DNA of 64,000 nucleotides, from positions 1,339,501 through 1,403,500 of the forward strand of contig CP039459.1 in the NCBI GenBank assembly GCA_004843165.1, read 5' to 3'. The stretch's first letter is position 1; each line of letters begins with the position of its first letter. Both the position numbers and the translations under genes were made by a program. Origin of the DNA: Acetobacteraceae bacterium (GTDB lineage: Bacteria > Pseudomonadota > Alphaproteobacteria > Acetobacterales > Acetobacteraceae). Under the pieces are notes generated by a model. The model was given only the letters and a program-made list of their open reading frames with translations, made no database searches and was not told the DNA's origin. Shown one piece after another: positions 8,365-47,438 of the stretch.

Positions 8365-9657
8365 TTAGCAGAAAACCTGTATGGGGTCTTCCCCAAAGGC
8401 GCTAAGATCTATATTGGCTTCTTTTACCAGTTCATAGACGGCTTTTTTCCAAAGTTCAGGTATCTTTGAAAAATTCTGTATACCTGCATCAAGAGAGCAG
8501 AAAAGGGTTGAAACGGAATCTTTTTGATCGGTATGTTTGGGCGCATAGGTACTGAGAATAGAATAAAAAGGCATTCCTTGCACAAAGGCGTTAAAGGCAA
8601 AAACAATCCGTTTAAGTGGGAAGTGATCCCACGCCATTTTTTGAGTGATACGAAAACTGCTACATGGCACAGAAAGACATTCCGAGGGTGGAAGTTGTTC
8701 AACGGCAATATTGGGATTTTCCGCATAGCGTGCGATGAGATCTTCTTTCATGTTTTTTTGTCGAAAAATATCCATCTTTTTTGAAATAGTTTCGAGTGAG
8801 AAATGAGGCGGAAGATCAATTCTGCCAAGATAGAAACGGTTCCCGACACCAAGATCCGCGGGAGGGCGGAGATTGATTGGCATAATGAGCGGTAATTTTG
8901 CTTCTTTAGGGACATTATCGGTATAAGCGTGACGCCATTGCCAAAGCGCATCGCCCATTGCTTTTAAATAGAGATCATTGCCGGAGACGCCAAAAACTTT
9001 TCCAATATTTGGGAGCAGGCTAGCTGGCATTTGAAGGGAGATAATTTGGCGATTAGGGGTTGAAGGTATATTTTTGAAAAATAATTGTACTTCTTCGTTA
9101 GAGGATGTGCCTTCTAAAAGCTGTGACGGAATGGATTTCGGATATTCTTTGAGGTTCGGAGATATAAAAGGGGCTGAGGCTTTTTGCCCGAAAAGTATAT
9201 TGAGCATTGCCGATATACCGCTTGCGTCCATGATTTCATGGCGAACGCACCATAAAAGTGAAAATTTATTATTTGGGAGAGCTGGGAAATAGCACAATTT
9301 CCAAGGGGCATTATAAGGGAGGTTACAGGTAAGAAAATCCTGAATTTCATCCTTTAAAGGCTTAGAAATAATGCGTTTTTCTGTAATGCATTTTTCCAAA
9401 TCCGGCATATAAGCACGCCAGTGAAAATTCCCTTCTACCTCTTCTAAATAATGTCTTAAAGAGGGGAGGGTGGCAATATTGTGTTTAATAAGATTTCGAA
9501 CCGCATCCAGAGGCGGTTTTTCTTTTCCCGTAAGATCGAACTCGATGTGGCAAACAAGGTTTGTGCGGCAAAGGGGAACATTTTCGGCTGCTTGATCCGC
9601 AAAGCGAAGCATTTTTTCGGTGATATTCGGTACATTTGTCAGAAAGTGATCTGTCAT
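8365..9657 (-). CDS. WS/DGAT-like O-acyltransferase
   Basis: A 430-residue protein related to wax ester synthase/diacylglycerol acyltransferases and the wider condensation-domain acyltransferases. The catalytic HHxxxDG box appears as R-H140-E-I-M-D144-A, keeping the second histidine and the aspartate but losing the first histidine and the glycine. A later PINLRPPADLGVGNRFYLG segment (about residues 268-286) matches the family's second conserved block. These enzymes move fatty acyl groups from acyl-CoA to alcohols or diglycerides; the acceptor here is unknown. It is transcribed with the small gene at 8067. The altered box makes storage-lipid synthesis uncertain. Confidence 0.65.
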   Translation of the reverse strand: MTDHFLTNVPNITEKMLRFADQAAENVPLCRTNLVCHIEFDLTGKEKPPLDAVRNLIKHNIATLPSLRHYLEEVEGNFHWRAYMPDLEKCITEKRIISKPLKDEIQDFLTCNLPYNAPWKLCYFPALPNNKFSLLWCVRHEIMDASGISAMLNILFGQKASAPFISPNLKEYPKSIPSQLLEGTSSNEEVQLFFKNIPSTPNRQIISLQMPASLLPNIGKVFGVSGNDLYLKAMGDALWQWRHAYTDNVPKEAKLPLIMPINLRPPADLGVGNRFYLGRIDLPPHFSLETISKKMDIFRQKNMKEDLIARYAENPNIAVEQLPPSECLSVPCSSFRITQKMAWDHFPLKRIVFAFNAFVQGMPFYSILSTYAPKHTDQKDSVSTLFCSLDAGIQNFSKIPELWKKAVYELVKEANIDLSAFGEDPIQVFC

Positions 9658-9793: not shown

Positions 9794-11086
9794 TTAGTAG
9801 CGATAAGTGTCAGGTTTGAATGGTCCATCAACTGGTACGCCGATATATTCTGCCTGATGTGGCTTCATTTTAGAAAGTTTAGCACCGACTTTTTCAAGAT
9901 GAAGGGCTGCAACTTTTTCATCTAGTTTTTTAGGCAGAACATAAACTTTATTTTCATACTGGCCTTCTTTGGCATTCCAAAGTTCCATCTGCGCCAAGGT
10001 TTGGTTGCAGAAGGAGTTGGACATGACATAGGAAGGGTGGCCGGTGGCATTTCCAAGATTGACCAAACGCCCTTCGGAAAGAAGGATAATGCGGCGGTTA
10101 GGGGCAAGTTCAATTTCATCGACTTGCGGTTTGATATTGTCCCATTTGTAGGCTCTTAAAGCCTCAACTTGGATTTCGCTGTCAAAATGCCCAATATTAC
10201 AAACGATCGCTCGGTCTTTCATTTCCTTGATATGATCTAGGGTAATGATGTCCTCGTTTCCTGTGCAGGTGACAAAAATATCGCCACGTGGCGCAGCGTC
10301 TTCCATTGTGACAACCTCATAGCCTTCCATAGCGGCTTGAAGGGCGCAGATTGGATCAACTTCGGTGACAAGCACACGGCAGCCCGCATTACGCAAGCTG
10401 GCTGCGGAGCCTTTACCGACATCTCCATAACCTGCAACAACGGCGACTTTGCCGGCCATCATCACATCTGTTGCACGACGGATCGCATCAACGAGGCTTT
10501 CACGGCAGCCGTAAAGATTGTCAAATTTAGATTTGGTGACACTGTCATTGACGTTAATAGCAGGTACTTTGAGCTCGCCTGATTTTTCCATTTTCCAGAG
10601 ACGGTGGACGCCTGTTGTGGTTTCTTCGGAAAGGCCACGGACGTTTTTAAGAAGTTCTGGATATTTATCATGCATCATGACAGTGAGATCACCACCATCA
10701 TCGAGAATCATGTTAGGAGTCCAGCCATTTGGGCCTTGAATGGTTTGTTCAATGCACCAGTTAAACTCTTCCTCTGTGAGACCTTTCCACGCAAAAACAG
10801 GAATGCCTGCTGCTGCAATCGCCGCAGCTGCCTGATCTTGCGTTGAGAAGACGTTGCAGCTTGACCAGCGGACTTCGGCACCGAGAGCGATCAAAGTTTC
10901 AATCAAAACAGCAGTTTGAATGGTCATGTGCAGGCAACCAGCAATACGGGCACCTTTTAGCGGTTGTGTTGCGCCATATTCCTTACGGAGTGCCATGAGA
11001 CCTGGCATTTCACCTTCAGCGATGGAGATTTCTTTACGTCCCCAATCGGCGAGAGAGAGATCGCGGACTTTATAATCGTTTGTCAT
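9794..11086 (-). CDS. ahcY: Adenosylhomocysteinase
   Basis: Cytoplasmic NAD-dependent enzyme that splits S-adenosylhomocysteine into adenosine and homocysteine, removing the inhibitor left by methyltransferases. The 430-residue length is usual. The start [10 protein letters not shown], the NAD-binding [10 protein letters not shown], the [12 protein letters not shown] and [11 protein letters not shown] segments, and the C-terminal KPDTYRY ending are all diagnostic. Upstream by 58 bases is a RidA-like gene in the same direction. No SAH riboswitch is recognisable in the short gap, but a small hairpin is present there. Confidence 0.97.
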
Positions 11087-40503: not shown

Positions 40504-40986
40504 CTACTTTCTTGGATATTCATCGGATAAGATGATACCGAGATGGGTAAGTTTCCACGGCTCTGCGGCATGAACCCGCTCACAGCCGGTCACAAGATCA
40601 TTGTGCAGGAAACAATAATAACGGCTATTCTCTTGCCATTTATTATCGGGTAATTTTTCATCAATTCGGATAAACACTGTATAGCCGGCCTCTTTGACAG
40701 GGCGGCTGAAAAATCTGTCTGAATTGATAATGTAGCGATGCGGCGAGCCAAAATCATATCTGACATCCTGCGGGTAAGGTTTGATTTTCCCGCTTGGCGC
40801 TTCCATCTTATCGCCATAGGGCATTGGAAGCTGTTCTAAAAGCGCAGCCTTTACCTTCTCTTGCCAAATCCCGTCTGTCGGTCTATTGCCGCAAACATTT
40901 GTATTCACAGGATGCATCTGACAGGCGGCAAGCAGTGCGACGCCGCTGAGCCCCATTACCGCCATAGATTTCTTCATATGTCGCAT
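40504..40986 (-). CDS. Hypothetical lipoprotein
   Basis: A 160-residue predicted lipoprotein. The signal ends in lipobox LLAAC (C22). The mature protein has three further cysteines (NVCGNRP, YYCFLH, TGCERV) and mixed strand/helix content. No family recognised. GAGAGA precedes the first ATG; a second ATG three codons later is also possible. Convergent with gmk. Confidence 0.65.
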   Translation of the reverse strand: MRHMKKSMAVMGLSGVALLAACQMHPVNTNVCGNRPTDGIWQEKVKAALLEQLPMPYGDKMEAPSGKIKPYPQDVRYDFGSPHRYIINSDRFFSRPVKEAGYTVFIRIDEKLPDNKWQENSRYYCFLHNDLVTGCERVHAAEPWKLTHLGIILSDEYPRK

Positions 40987-41150
40987 TTTCTCTCTTCATC
41001 TCCTCAATAGATGTTGTTTTTGCAGAATTGGAAAAAATGAGAAATCTGTTTTTATTCGATGCACAAAGTGAGGGCATTCCCCCTTAAAGGGTCATGCGCT
41101 AAGCCTCATAATCGAAAAGGACAGATTTCTCTGTTTAACAATCCAAAAAA

Positions 41151-44100
41151 TTAGAAGGCGATTTTCGCTGACAATTGCCCACCCGACATCGTCTGGGAGT
41201 GACCGCCGTAAAGCCCGACATAATTTGCCCCAAAAGAAAGATACTCGGTTGGATGCACATCAAAGCCCAATTCTGTGAGCGCCTGATCCTGTACCACCGG
41301 TACACCAACAATAGAGAGTCCATCGGTGCCGCCACCGAGGGCTTCAAATCCTGTATGGGTATAAGATTGGTTGGCCCCGAAGGAGCGGCGATAACCGAAT
41401 TTGCCATGCGGTGTAATGACAACATTACCAATATTAAAGTTGGTTGCGATTTTTGCCCCCATAAAGCCATAGCCTAAATTGGTATTGGTGGCTGCGCCGT
41501 GCAGTGCGAGATTGCCGCCTGTTTCATGGTAGGAACCCTGCTCATAGTTCAAATAGGTGATGGAGCCGGTTGGCGCGAGTTCAAGGGGAGTGCCCCAGAG
41601 ATTAAAGACATGCTTATAAGCGATCTCGGCATTGATATGCGCTGTACCGCCAAGCTCATTGGCATGGAGGCTCTGATTATATTGTGCGGCGGCTCCTTGG
41701 AGATCAACAGAACGGTGCCAGCTCATAATATTCCATGTATAGCCAAACTGGCCGTGGAAGGTGAAGAAGTTCTGGTTATCAAAACGAACTTGCTTACCGA
41801 AATACATACCGATATTGGCGTTGTTACTTTCACCGGAGGAGGAGACGCCGCTGGCTGATTCCATGACGGATCCATAGCCCATCATCATCCCGACATGCCA
41901 TCTATCCTCGGCATAGCCTTCAGATCCGATTTCGCCATCGACACCCCAGATGAAGCCGGCTTCGTTATCTCTGGTCTTTGCGGCGTAATCCCAGCCGGAA
42001 TGGCCGTTTTGTCCGCCAAGTCCGCCATACATATTGCCCCAGACATTGACCTTTTTACCGGTAACGCCGCAGACATTGGAATTTGTGGCTTTGCCGTCGC
42101 CGATCTGGCGGAACGTGTCTTCGAGGCAGTCGAGGCGGTTATTAACGGAATCTCTGACCCAGAAATTGTTATTGATATTGCCGGTCCGCATATCGGAGGC
42201 GATTTCACCATCCATCTGCGTTAAATTATAAAGGCGCTGTTCGTTGTCAGAGCCGGCGAGGATGCTGGCAATGCCATGAAGCGGACTGTTCGGATTATCA
42301 ACAGAAGGGGAAAGTCTCTGAGCCGTGCCTGTCTGGTTACGGTCACCACCCCAGCCTAGGCCTTTTGCAGCATCAAATTGTAGCGTGATTTTAACATCAT
42401 CTTTGCTATATTCGAGACCTGTCGTTGTTAGAACACCATAACCGTTTGCACCACTGGCACCGATAACACCATTTTCATCATATGAAAATTTTGCCTTCCC
42501 GTTATCGCCTCTTACCAGGCCGCCATCTGCGTGGATAAGGTCGTAGGCTTGATTCACCTGTAGCTCTGCACCTTTAGCGACATTTGCTACCAGTGATGTT
42601 CCATTTTGAAAGGTAAAAGTGCCGCTATCATATAAGTTGGTGACTTCCGGACGAGATCCGAGATCCGTAATCAGTTTTGAGTCACTTGTCATTGTCGTAT
42701 TGCCATTGACGGTCAAGGTACCTGTGCCAAAACCAGCGTTAATTGCACCGTGATCACGAATATTTACATTTCCGTCAATAATCCCAATGCCTGCCAAAGT
42801 ACTTTCGGCATTGCTCGTGCCAGAAACATTGATTGTTCCGGAAGGAGGAGAGAGCGCAGCAGACATCTTGGAAGGTAAGGCAGTGTTTGAGGATGACAGA
42901 TGATATTCATTTTGAGAAAGGAGCGTTAAAGTTCCGCCATTAGAGATGTCGGCGCTGCTACCTGCGGCGACTTTAACGTAACCATTACCGTTCCCTGCGG
43001 GTTTCCCAGCATCCCCAACAGTTAGGGAAGAACCATCTACATTGAGTGTGCCTGTACCACCGCCGCCGCCCAGATAGACGCTGTCGGCAGCGACTTTACT
43101 GCCGTTATCAATCTTGACATTGCCTGTAGATCCCTTGCCATAGCCTGCGATAAGTCCGTCGCCTATGGTGGCTTGAGCCCCGTGATCGAAAGTTAGGTTG
43201 CCGACAGAGCCTGCATTATTCCCGACAGTGACACGACCTGCGATTGTGGAGGTGCCGCCATTCTGGGTGAGGCTGTTCTGTGTCCCGCTATAACCGACGA
43301 TGACACCATTGCCTTGATCATTATAAGTTGTATTTGTCAGCGTAGCGGTTGCGGAGGAATTGCCGCCTTCACCGATGGTAAGGCCGCCGTTAATGGTTGA
43401 ATCTGTCGCTGTAAGGGTAGCGGGGCCGCCACCTGTTGCATTGGGGTCATTTGTTGCGCCGGCAAGGTCGCCGACTTGGATCTGTCCCTTATCGACATTG
43501 ATTGTGCCGTGATTGACATTAACACTTGCCGTCCCGGTGCCTTGTGTTGTGCCAATTTGCAGGGTTGGATAGCCGGTAATCTGGCCGTTTGAATCAATGG
43601 AAGGATTTGCTTGAATGGTTAAAGTTCCGCCATTAGAGATGTCGGCGCTGCTACCTGCGGCGACTTTAACGTAACCATTACCGTTCCCTGCGGGTTTCCC
43701 AGCATCCCCAACAGTTAGGGAAGAACCATCTACATTGAGTGTGCCTGTACCACCGCCGCCGCCCAGATAGACGCTGTCGGCAGCGACTTTACTGCCGTTA
43801 TCAATCTTGACATTGCCTGTAGATCCCTTGCCATAGCCTGCGATAAGTCCGTCGCCTATGGTGGCTTGAGCCCCGTGATCGAAAGTTAGGTTGCCGACAG
43901 AGCCTGCATTATTCCCGACAGTGACACGACCTGCGATTGTGGAGGTGCCGCCATTCTGGGTGAGGCTGTTCTGTGTCCCGCTATAACCGACGATGACACC
44001 ATTGCCTTGATCATTATAAGTTGTATTTGTCAGCGTAGCGGTTGCGGAGGAATTGCCGCCTTCACCGATGGTAAGGCCGCCGTTAATGGTTGAATCTGTC

Positions 44101-47100
44101 GCTGTAAGGGTAGCGGGGCCGCCACCTGTTGCATTGGGGTCATTTGTTGCGCCGGCAAGGTCGCCGACTTGGATCTGTCCCTTATCGACATTGATTGTGC
44201 CGTGATTGACATTAACACTTGCCGTCCCGGTGCCTTGTGTTGTGCCAATTTGCAGGGTTGGATAGCCGGTAATCTGGCCGTTTGAATCAATGGAAGGATT
44301 TGCTTGAATGGTTAAAGTTCCGCCATTAGAGATGTCGGCGCTGCTACCTGCGGCGACTTTAACGTAACCATTACCGTTCCCTGCGGGTTTCCCAGCATCC
44401 CCAACAGTTAGGGAAGAACCATCTACATTGAGTGTGCCTGTACCACCGCCGCCGCCCAGATAGACGCTGTCGGCAGCGACTTTACTGCCGTTATCAATCT
44501 TGACATTGCCTGTAGATCCCTTGCCATAGCCTGCGATAAGTCCGTCGCCTATGGTGGCTTGAGCCCCGTGATCGAAAGTTAGGTTGCCGACAGAGCCTGC
44601 ATTATTCCCGACAGTGACACGACCTGCGATTGTGGAGGTGCCGCCATTCTGGGTGAGGCTGTTCTGTGTCCCGCTATAACCGACGATGACACCATTGCCT
44701 TGATCATTATAAGTTGTATTTGTCAGCGTAGCGGTTGCGGAGGAATTGCCGCCTTCACCGATGGTAAGGCCGCCGTTAATGGTTGAATCTGTCGCTGTAA
44801 GGGTAGCGGGGCCGCCACCTGTTGCATTGGGGTCATTTGTTGCGCCGGCAAGGTCGCCGACTTGGATCTGTCCCTTATCGACATTGATTGTGCCGTGATT
44901 GACATTAACACTTGCCGTCCCGGTGCCTTGTGTTGTGCCAATTTGCAGGGTTGGATAGCCGGTAATCTGGCCGTTTGAATCAATGGAAGGATTTGCTTGA
45001 ATGGTTAAAGTTCCGCCATTAGAGATGTCGGCGCTGCTACCTGCGGCGACTTTAACGTAACCATTACCGTTCCCTGCGGGTTTCCCAGCATCCCCAACAG
45101 TTAGGGAAGAACCATCTACATTGAGTGTGCCTGTACCACCGCCGCCGCCCAGATAGACGCTGTCGGCAGCGACTTTACTGCCGTTATCAATCTTGACATT
45201 GCCTGTAGATCCCTTGCCATAGCCTGCGATAAGTCCGTCGCCTATGGTGGCTTGAGCCCCGTGATCGAAAGTTAGGTTGCCGACAGAGCCTGCATTATTC
45301 CCGACAGTGACACGACCTGCGATTGTGGAGGTGCCGCCATTCTGGGTGAGGCTGTTCTGTGTCCCGCTATAACCGACGATGACACCATTGCCTTGATCAT
45401 TATAAGTTGTATTTGTCAGCGTAGCGGTTGCGGAGGAATTGCCGCCTTCACCGATGGTAAGGCCGCCGTTAATGGTTGAATCTGTCGCTGTAAGGGTAGC
45501 GGGGCCGCCACCTGTTGCATTGGGGTCATTTGTTGCGCCGGCAAGGTCGCCGACTTGGATCTGTCCCTTATCGACATTGATTGTGCCGTGATTGACATTA
45601 ACACTTGCCGTCCCGGTGCCTTGTGTTGTGCCAATTTGCAGGGTTGGATAGCCGGTAATCTGGCCGTTTGAATCAATGGAAGGATTTGCTTGAATGGTTA
45701 AAGTTCCGCCATTAGAGATGTCGGCGCTGCTACCTGCGGCGACTTTAACGTAACCATTACCGTTCCCTGCGGGTTTCCCAGCATCCCCAACAGTTAAGGA
45801 AGAACCATCTACATTGAGTGTGCCTGTACCACCGCCGCCGCCCAGATAGACGCTGTCGGCAGCGACTTTACTGCCGTTATCAATCTTGACATTGCCTGTA
45901 GATCCCTTGCCATAGCCTGCGATAAGTCCGTCGCCTATGGTGGCTTGAGCCCCGTGATCGAAAGTTAGGTTGCCGACAGAGCCTGCATTATTCCCGACAG
46001 TGACACGACCTGCGATTGTGGAGGTGCCGCCATTCTGGGTGAGGCTGTTCTGTGTCCCGCTATAACCGACGATGACACCATTGCCTTGATCATTATAAGT
46101 TGTATTTGTCAGCGTAGCGGTTGCGGAGGAATTGCCGCCTTCACCGATGGTAAGGCCGCCGTTAATGGTTGAATCTGTCGCTGTAAGGGTAGCGGGGCCG
46201 CCACCTGTTGCATTGGGGTCATTTGTTGCGCCGGCAAGGTCGCCGACTTGGATCTGTCCCTTATCGACATTGATTGTGCCGTGATTGACATTAACACTTG
46301 CCGTCCCGGTGCCTTGTGTTGTGCCAATTTGCAGGGTTGGATAGCCGGTAATCTGGCCGTTTGAATCAATGGAAGGATTTGCTTGAATGGTTAAAGTTCC
46401 GCCATTAGAGATGTCGGCGCTGCTACCTGCGGCGACTTTAACGTAACCATTACCGTTCCCTGCGGGTTTCCCAGCATCCCCAACAGTTAGGGAAGAACCA
46501 TCTACATTGAGTGTGCCTGTACCACCGCCGCCGCCCAGATAGACGCTGTCGGCAGCGACTTTACTGCCGTTATCAATCTTGACATTGCCTGTAGATCCCT
46601 TGCCATAGCCTGCGATAAGTCCGTCGCCTATGGTGGCTTGAGCCCCGTGATCGAAAGTTAGGTTGCCGACAGAGCCTGCATTATTCCCGACAGTGACACG
46701 ACCTGCGATTGTGGAGGTGCCGCCATTCTGGGTGAGGCTGTTCTGTGTCCCGCTATAACCGACGATGACACCATTGCCTTGATCATTATAAGTTGTATTT
46801 GTCAGCGTAGCGGTTGCGGAGGAATTGCCGCCTTCACCGATGGTAAGGCCGCCGTTAATGGTTGAATCTGTCGCTGTAAGGGTAGCGGGGCCGCCACCTG
46901 TTGCATTGGGGTCATTTGTTGCGCCGGCAAGGTCGCCGACTTGGATCTGTCCCTTATCGACATTGATTGTGCCGTGATTGACATTAACACTTGCCGTCCC
47001 GGTGCCTTGTGTTGTGCCAATTTGCAGGGTTGGATAGCCGGTAATCTGGCCGTTTGAATCAATGGAAGGATTTGCTTGAATGGTTAAAGTTCCGCCATTA

Positions 47101-47438
47101 GAGATGTCGGCGCTGCTACCTGCGGCGACTTTAACGTAACCATTACCGTTCCCTGCGGGTTTCCCAGCATCCCCAACAGTTAAGGAAGAACCATCCACAT
47201 TGAGTGGATCTTGAGTGGTAACATCAATATGGGATATTGTGCGTGTATCGGCTTCTTTCATTTCAGCGATGGGGATGGGGCGTGCTTTAGCCCATACACT
47301 ATCAGTGAGTGATAAGATTGAAAAAGTGAGCGCTGATAAAATAAAACGTTTTTGCCAAAAAAGTTTATAATGCGATTCTTTCTGAGTGAGGAGATTTGAG
47401 TTGCAACTTTGTTTATGAGTGAAATGAGCCATGCACAA
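41151..47438 (-). CDS. Giant autotransporter with six-fold passenger repeats
   Basis: A type V secreted outer-membrane protein of about 2093-2095 residues. An unusually long signal region ends in TDSVWA near residue 50. Residues 81-1466 are six copies of a 231-residue unit rich in G, N, T and S, of the type that forms a beta-helix (NVDGSSLTVGDAGKPAGNG, ATLTNTTYNDQGNGVIVGYS). A partial seventh copy follows to about 1505. The last 290 or so residues form the beta-barrel, ending in the expected C-terminal phenylalanine (AKIAF). AGGAGG is 6 bases from a TTG at 47438 and 12 from the ATG at 47432, so either may be used. Likely an adhesin or surface-display protein. Confidence 0.93.
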   Translation of the reverse strand: MCMAHFTHKQSCNSNLLTQKESHYKLFWQKRFILSALTFSILSLTDSVWAKARPIPIAEMKEADTRTISHIDVTTQDPLNVDGSSLTVGDAGKPAGNGNGYVKVAAGSSADISNGGTLTIQANPSIDSNGQITGYPTLQIGTTQGTGTASVNVNHGTINVDKGQIQVGDLAGATNDPNATGGGPATLTATDSTINGGLTIGEGGNSSATATLTNTTYNDQGNGVIVGYSGTQNSLTQNGGTSTIAGRVTVGNNAGSVGNLTFDHGAQATIGDGLIAGYGKGSTGNVKIDNGSKVAADSVYLGGGGGTGTLNVDGSSLTVGDAGKPAGNGNGYVKVAAGSSADISNGGTLTIQANPSIDSNGQITGYPTLQIGTTQGTGTASVNVNHGTINVDKGQIQVGDLAGATNDPNATGGGPATLTATDSTINGGLTIGEGGNSSATATLTNTTYNDQGNGVIVGYSGTQNSLTQNGGTSTIAGRVTVGNNAGSVGNLTFDHGAQATIGDGLIAGYGKGSTGNVKIDNGSKVAADSVYLGGGGGTGTLNVDGSSLTVGDAGKPAGNGNGYVKVAAGSSADISNGGTLTIQANPSIDSNGQITGYPTLQIGTTQGTGTASVNVNHGTINVDKGQIQVGDLAGATNDPNATGGGPATLTATDSTINGGLTIGEGGNSSATATLTNTTYNDQGNGVIVGYSGTQNSLTQNGGTSTIAGRVTVGNNAGSVGNLTFDHGAQATIGDGLIAGYGKGSTGNVKIDNGSKVAADSVYLGGGGGTGTLNVDGSSLTVGDAGKPAGNGNGYVKVAAGSSADISNGGTLTIQANPSIDSNGQITGYPTLQIGTTQGTGTASVNVNHGTINVDKGQIQVGDLAGATNDPNATGGGPATLTATDSTINGGLTIGEGGNSSATATLTNTTYNDQGNGVIVGYSGTQNSLTQNGGTSTIAGRVTVGNNAGSVGNLTFDHGAQATIGDGLIAGYGKGSTGNVKIDNGSKVAADSVYLGGGGGTGTLNVDGSSLTVGDAGKPAGNGNGYVKVAAGSSADISNGGTLTIQANPSIDSNGQITGYPTLQIGTTQGTGTASVNVNHGTINVDKGQIQVGDLAGATNDPNATGGGPATLTATDSTINGGLTIGEGGNSSATATLTNTTYNDQGNGVIVGYSGTQNSLTQNGGTSTIAGRVTVGNNAGSVGNLTFDHGAQATIGDGLIAGYGKGSTGNVKIDNGSKVAADSVYLGGGGGTGTLNVDGSSLTVGDAGKPAGNGNGYVKVAAGSSADISNGGTLTIQANPSIDSNGQITGYPTLQIGTTQGTGTASVNVNHGTINVDKGQIQVGDLAGATNDPNATGGGPATLTATDSTINGGLTIGEGGNSSATATLTNTTYNDQGNGVIVGYSGTQNSLTQNGGTSTIAGRVTVGNNAGSVGNLTFDHGAQATIGDGLIAGYGKGSTGNVKIDNGSKVAADSVYLGGGGGTGTLNVDGSSLTVGDAGKPAGNGNGYVKVAAGSSADISNGGTLTLLSQNEYHLSSSNTALPSKMSAALSPPSGTINVSGTSNAESTLAGIGIIDGNVNIRDHGAINAGFGTGTLTVNGNTTMTSDSKLITDLGSRPEVTNLYDSGTFTFQNGTSLVANVAKGAELQVNQAYDLIHADGGLVRGDNGKAKFSYDENGVIGASGANGYGVLTTTGLEYSKDDVKITLQFDAAKGLGWGGDRNQTGTAQRLSPSVDNPNSPLHGIASILAGSDNEQRLYNLTQMDGEIASDMRTGNINNNFWVRDSVNNRLDCLEDTFRQIGDGKATNSNVCGVTGKKVNVWGNMYGGLGGQNGHSGWDYAAKTRDNEAGFIWGVDGEIGSEGYAEDRWHVGMMMGYGSVMESASGVSSSGESNNANIGMYFGKQVRFDNQNFFTFHGQFGYTWNIMSWHRSVDLQGAAAQYNQSLHANELGGTAHINAEIAYKHVFNLWGTPLELAPTGSITYLNYEQGSYHETGGNLALHGAATNTNLGYGFMGAKIATNFNIGNVVITPHGKFGYRRSFGANQSYTHTGFEALGGGTDGLSIVGVPVVQDQALTELGFDVHPTEYLSFGANYVGLYGGHSQTMSGGQLSAKIAF
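42925..47198 (-). repeat. 693-bp tandem repeats, six complete copies plus a partial
   Basis: The same 693-base unit recurs in frame from 47198 down to 43041 (six full copies). A partial copy (43040 to about 42925) merges into unique passenger sequence. Reading copies against each other I see only one internal difference, A instead of G at 45797 and 47183, and a C/T change at the outer edge near 47194. Each unit encodes 231 residues without disrupting the frame, so copy number can change by recombination without inactivating the gene. Confidence 0.97.

Follow-up and report, generated by a model that had tools for sequence, protein, structure and literature searches.

The stretch of DNA analysed here (the window, 64,000 nucleotides) covers positions 1339501-1403500 of a 1,923,586-base one-contig genome, which is very probably that of strain 880, an AAB2 gut symbiont of the carpenter ant Camponotus chromaiodes. 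On its minus strand, positions 41151..47438 hold an autotransporter gene encoding 2,095 aa, delimited from the ORF list and the upstream sequence. The probable start codon is a TTG at 47438 with AGGAGG 6 nt upstream, an alternative ATG following six bases later at 47432. The 2,095-codon frame is open throughout, array included, which rules out a frameshift or pseudogene. Read along this strand, the protein begins with a repeat-free N-terminus (47207..47438) carrying a hydrophobic segment that resembles a signal peptide when the translation is judged by eye. This is followed by a tandem array, a repeat-free C-terminal passenger part (42366..42924), and the β-barrel with the residues before it (41151..42305). 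The C-terminal passenger part is ~200 residues shorter than its counterpart in the sister strain 868 and in a paralog of the same genome, both of which have the residues that the window protein lacks between array and barrel.

When the barrel segment was scanned alone, Pfam family PF03797 was matched in the last 384 residues with an E of 1.2e-31. The gene is a type Va (classical) autotransporter. A scan of the whole window protein missed PF03797, which the barrel segment alone returned at 1e-31, and automatic annotation may therefore overlook such repeat-rich genes. Odd low-scoring matches to META and DUF3696 in the full-length scan were read as composition artefacts. No PATR motif was listed for the window protein in the Pfam scan at E up to 10, while the paralog has one (2e-12) and the strain 868 protein stayed below the cut-off. 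This motif near the passenger C-terminus is common, not universal, in type Va autotransporters. The repeat unit had no Pfam match, an NCBIfam search gave one match far under its cut-off, and a sequence search against solved structures gave weak matches only (best E 0.034). The PHROGs collection held nothing for the repeat unit or for the 160-aa ORF downstream of the gene (40504..40986, minus strand), and a phage origin was rejected on this basis; the downstream ORF also has no Pfam match and lies mostly within a block common to the second autotransporter. Elsewhere in the window, two adjoining minus-strand ORFs, at 8365-9657 and 9794-11086, both code for 430 aa and are perhaps a tandem duplication.

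The array spans ~42925-47206 (4.28 kb) and comprises 6.2 copies of a 693-bp (231-aa) unit, in agreement with an earlier sequence-only reading of this DNA that had placed six near-identical 693-bp repeats at 42925-47198 in an autotransporter passenger. Between 43000 and 46400, 100-base blocks match the sequence at a lag of 693 with 99-100% identity, whereas the flanks reach 14-37%, which rules out a chance or low-complexity repeat. This identity is lost at 42924 at one end and, in lag coordinates, somewhere from 46490 to 46514 at the other. With the boundaries set in LNVDG phase, the full copies on the minus strand are copy 1 (46512..47204), copy 2 (45819..46511), copy 3 (45126..45818), copy 4 (44433..45125), copy 5 (43740..44432) and copy 6 (43047..43739), followed by an exact partial copy 7 of 122 bp (42925..43046). 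A shifted repeat at the junction after copy 7 was considered and rejected, since blastn returned an exact 136-base repeat match and otherwise short chance matches only. Tandem Repeats Finder, in which the longest period handled is 500, reported no array.

Any two of the six full copies differ at 0, 1 or 2 bases, copies 2, 4, 5 and 6 being identical, and at the protein level identity is 100%. The proposal that the copies agree at nearly every base, silent positions included, is borne out, as they differ by three variant bases only (47183 and 47196 in copy 1, 45797 in copy 3), which fall at two unit positions and are all silent. The variant at 45797 is the same as that at 47183 and is absent from copy 2. 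Such a distribution is what patchy exchange would give, although it concerns a single site and could reflect two mutations.

Two units were modeled together. The best model, obtained from single-sequence input with two of five models below 60, has a mean pLDDT of 82.4 and a pTM of 0.84, consists of nearly all strands, and shows strands continuing across the unit boundary. The top Foldseek match in the PDB was Antigen 43 (E 4.1e-4), with low TM-scores, the highest for the query being 0.36 among the matches listed. When the Foldseek matches were realigned with VIA-align, Vag8 (Z 27.4, 352 residues, 2.5 Å), pertactin (24.9) and TibA (22.7) ranked first and the five best rows were all autotransporter passengers (Z 27.4-20.1); high scores are common for β-helical proteins generally, so that these values speak to fold and not to function. 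The units are accordingly predicted to form a β-helix closest to those of Vag8, pertactin and TibA, and the exposed part of the protein is modeled as a long β-helical rod of tandem 231-residue modules. Each extra unit would lengthen the same rod, and copy changes would amount to stepwise lengthening or shortening.

The array in strain 868 and in other Acetobacteraceae

The genome taken as strain 868 has a second contig of 20,485 bases, of which the 7,276 bases compared are identical to CP039461.1, plasmid p1 of Acetobacteraceae bacterium strain 868 from the C. chromaiodes gut. The corresponding locus of this strain, which likewise lies between the ETF genes and gmk, carries a gene of 4,543 codons. 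Its array consists of 12.9 copies of an 846-bp (282-aa) unit, with an unbroken lag-846 match run of 10,100 bases; copies 1 to 12 are without any difference, and copy 13 departs from them at the end. The units of 231 and 282 residues open with the same motif, but across 222 columns (69 gap columns) their protein identity is only 53%, while the barrels of the two genes are 84% identical in protein. Synonymous divergence (dS) between the window genome and strain 868, determined by the Nei-Gojobori method, in which values above 1 are imprecise, was 1.75 for the unit, 2.03 for the barrel, 1.33 for gmk and 4.09 for etfA. In these alignments silent sites are saturated between the strains (dS about 1.3-4) and almost unchanged within the arrays, a pattern characteristic of concerted evolution or else of recent amplification in each strain separately. 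The very recent origin or homogenisation claimed in the sequence-only reading thus gains strong support from a different yet uniform unit at the same locus.

The repeat unit was found in 2/200 genomes of the family, both of this genus, and the barrel in 20/200. Arrays elsewhere are therefore built of other sequences. A contig scan with an 11-barrel alignment yielded 75 loci; the same kind of scan with a 2-row alignment had given 137 pattern matches and no relative. Internal repeats with a period of 150 or more were present in 17 of the 75 barrel ORFs, and in 8 the top period was 450 or more. Long repeats in other passengers measured 1,083 bp in genome G070 (3.7 copies, 98.3%), 621 bp in Gluconacetobacter diazotrophicus (4.1 copies, 97.4%), 573 bp in Zymomonas mobilis AN0101 (7.8 copies, 97.2%) and 1,185 bp in genome G066 (3.4 copies, 98.4%), where nested repeats with a longer period, 3,501 bp, reach 99.3%. 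In G066 (L057-L058) these nested 1,185- and 3,501-bp repeats lie in a 7,084-residue open frame ahead of a related barrel. Among 12 genes compared, with ragged ends counted in, the arrays of strains 880 (99.4%) and 868 (99.8%) were the most uniform.

Many of the assemblies in this census are drafts, and 18 of the 75 ORFs are truncated by a contig end on their 5' side. Contig ends lay within 3 kb, a limit picked after data inspection, upstream only at 13 of the 75 loci, downstream only at 3 and on both sides at 3 (two-sided binomial p 0.02). This upstream excess fits repeats breaking assemblies; other causes are possible.

Origin of the uniform repeats

The finding of a different but uniform unit in strain 868, together with saturated silent sites between the strains, suggests that the arrays were homogenised or re-amplified separately in each lineage. 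Homogenisation by recombination between copies or by re-amplification is very likely in our view. Identical copies would recombine through unequal exchange, replication slippage or gene conversion, which would add or remove whole modules in frame and keep the copies identical, and rod length would hence differ between lineages and probably between cells. In-frame gain and loss of 231-residue blocks, as had been proposed, is possible, given that 693 is a multiple of three and that recA is present in both genomes (2/2, window genome and strain 868). Length is more likely than not to vary within present-day populations as well.

The alternative that fares best is a one-off recent amplification, in which a single ancestral unit was multiplied once per strain independently and is now fixed, with no continuing exchange. 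The near absence of mismatches in both strains is also expected from a very recent single burst, and the unit lengths differ between strains 880 and 868. However, the gene would have had to undergo such a burst recently and independently in both strains, at one and the same position, and similar arrays made of other units are found repeatedly elsewhere in the Acetobacteraceae. We regard such a history as rather unlikely and favor recombining, self-homogenising repeats.

A second autotransporter in the window genome bears on whether passengers are exchanged on a common barrel. The genome holds two PF03797 barrels with identical protein over 384 residues, whereas strain 868 has one barrel of this type. 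The block common to both loci (40538..42365, minus strand, ~1.83 kb) includes the barrel and most of the 160-aa downstream ORF and recurs at ~1.11 Mb, ~270 kb away (L003 8266-10093), in opposite orientation and with one mismatch (41382). The second gene has a different passenger, and its last part, barrel included, is 65% identical to the end of the strain 868 protein. In strain 868 no autotransporter intervenes between the flanking genes of the second locus, which are separated by ~16 bases. Insertion of the second autotransporter in the 880 lineage is the simplest history, its loss from strain 868 being the alternative. Near this locus, a 765-residue protein (L003 1-2298, TonB-dependent receptor-like by eye) belongs to a family with eight matches in each ant-symbiont genome.

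The paralog might act as a recombination partner that swaps passengers on the shared barrel. The nearly identical inverted block stops sharply at 42365, inside the linker, and the Hsr protein of Helicobacter mustelae is described as varying through recombination of passenger cassettes (parts of PMC2846917). On the other hand, the array is absent from the second passenger, where the one match was weak (36%), and silent cassettes did not turn up. One duplication in the past is enough to explain the block, since the genes flanking the second locus adjoin in strain 868. Modular switching of this kind is improbable, and recombination within the array remains the preferred reading.

Identical repeats are a classic assembly problem, and the copy number or uniformity could in principle have been made by collapsing or duplicating reads. 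The probable source paper describes strains 868 (2.1 Mb) and 880 (1,923,512 bp) as closed HGAP assemblies from PacBio RSII data, with 570.93-fold coverage for strain 880, a mean read N50 of 23,501 bp and even Illumina coverage (Brown and Wernegreen, 2019; sections of PMC6558740). Although the genome is assigned to strain 880 by inference, an artefact is very improbable, because in a closed PacBio assembly reads of this length (N50 23.5 kb) far exceed the 4.3-kb array. Protein-level selection alone, without DNA exchange, could keep a repeated protein that requires identical modules uniform, yet it is practically untenable here, as silent positions are identical too despite being saturated between the strains.

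Discussion

Taken together, our results suggest that the gene encodes an autotransporter rod of recombining, self-homogenising β-helical modules, an overall explanation that we consider likely. In this acetic acid bacterium of the ant gut, the product most likely acts as an adhesin or in cell-cell contact, the putative adhesive role being moderately probable.

With respect to its PF03797 barrel and modeled β-helix, the protein resembles pertactin, Vag8, TibA and Antigen 43 (type Va). We know of no long identical DNA repeats in the passengers of these four proteins. Long near-identical repeats in surface genes, with size varying between isolates, occur in Rickettsia rOmpA and the streptococcal alpha C protein, in which the repeat units and folds differ from those of the ant-symbiont array. 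Hsr of H. mustelae is likewise an autotransporter with a passenger varied by recombination; it uses neighbouring epitope cassettes (according to portions of PMC2846917), and none were seen at the ant-symbiont locus.

As far as the consulted parts of PMC8201768 and PMC9704523 show, the nearest published class is that of the Periscope Proteins, single-chain surface proteins with long tandem repeats near-identical in DNA, whose repeat number is proposed to vary via intragenic recombination. The class comprises SasG, Rib, Sgo_0707 and CdrA and already includes an autotransporter with β-helical repeats, Salmonella ShdA, with 4-6 PATR repeats (PMC9704523, in part). Under the definition of this class (a single-chain surface protein with tandem repeats longer than 50 residues that share 80% identity or more), the present repeat has 231 aa at 100% identity. 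In contrast to Periscope Proteins, the units here are predicted to be β-helical segments of 231 or 282 aa rather than globular domains that each fold on their own, and the carrier is an insect symbiont. The repeat numbers of 6.2 and 12.9 in the sister strains refer to units of different length in different species, with one genome per species compared. The present comparison contributes the copied barrel and, in a sister strain of the same host species, another array at this locus whose unit differs but whose uniformity is just as high. In the open-access literature, with supplements outside the scope, no paper was found on these arrays in acetic acid bacteria, and 'autotransporter' and 'adhesin' have 0 occurrences in the main text of PMC6558740.

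The two sister strains share an ant host species, and their silent divergence is saturated outside the array and almost nil inside it. They offer a clean natural test of concerted evolution in a surface protein with antibodies excluded as a cause, the host being an insect without antibodies. Both strains have been cultured (PMC6558740, as far as its consulted sections go), which makes it possible to count repeats per colony directly.

For insect-gut acetic acid bacteria more broadly, we tentatively propose that such rods are rebuilt in each lineage, each amplifying and continually homogenising its own β-helix module (231, 282, 361 or 395 aa, and others) on a conserved barrel, which is also copied onto new passengers. 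Most descriptions of bacterial surface proteins that vary in repeat length come from human pathogens, with antibody escape a usual explanation. If our proposal holds, the length of the rods and the modules they consist of would change more quickly than species diverge, driven by adhesion, competition or phages and not by escape from antibodies, which these hosts do not have.
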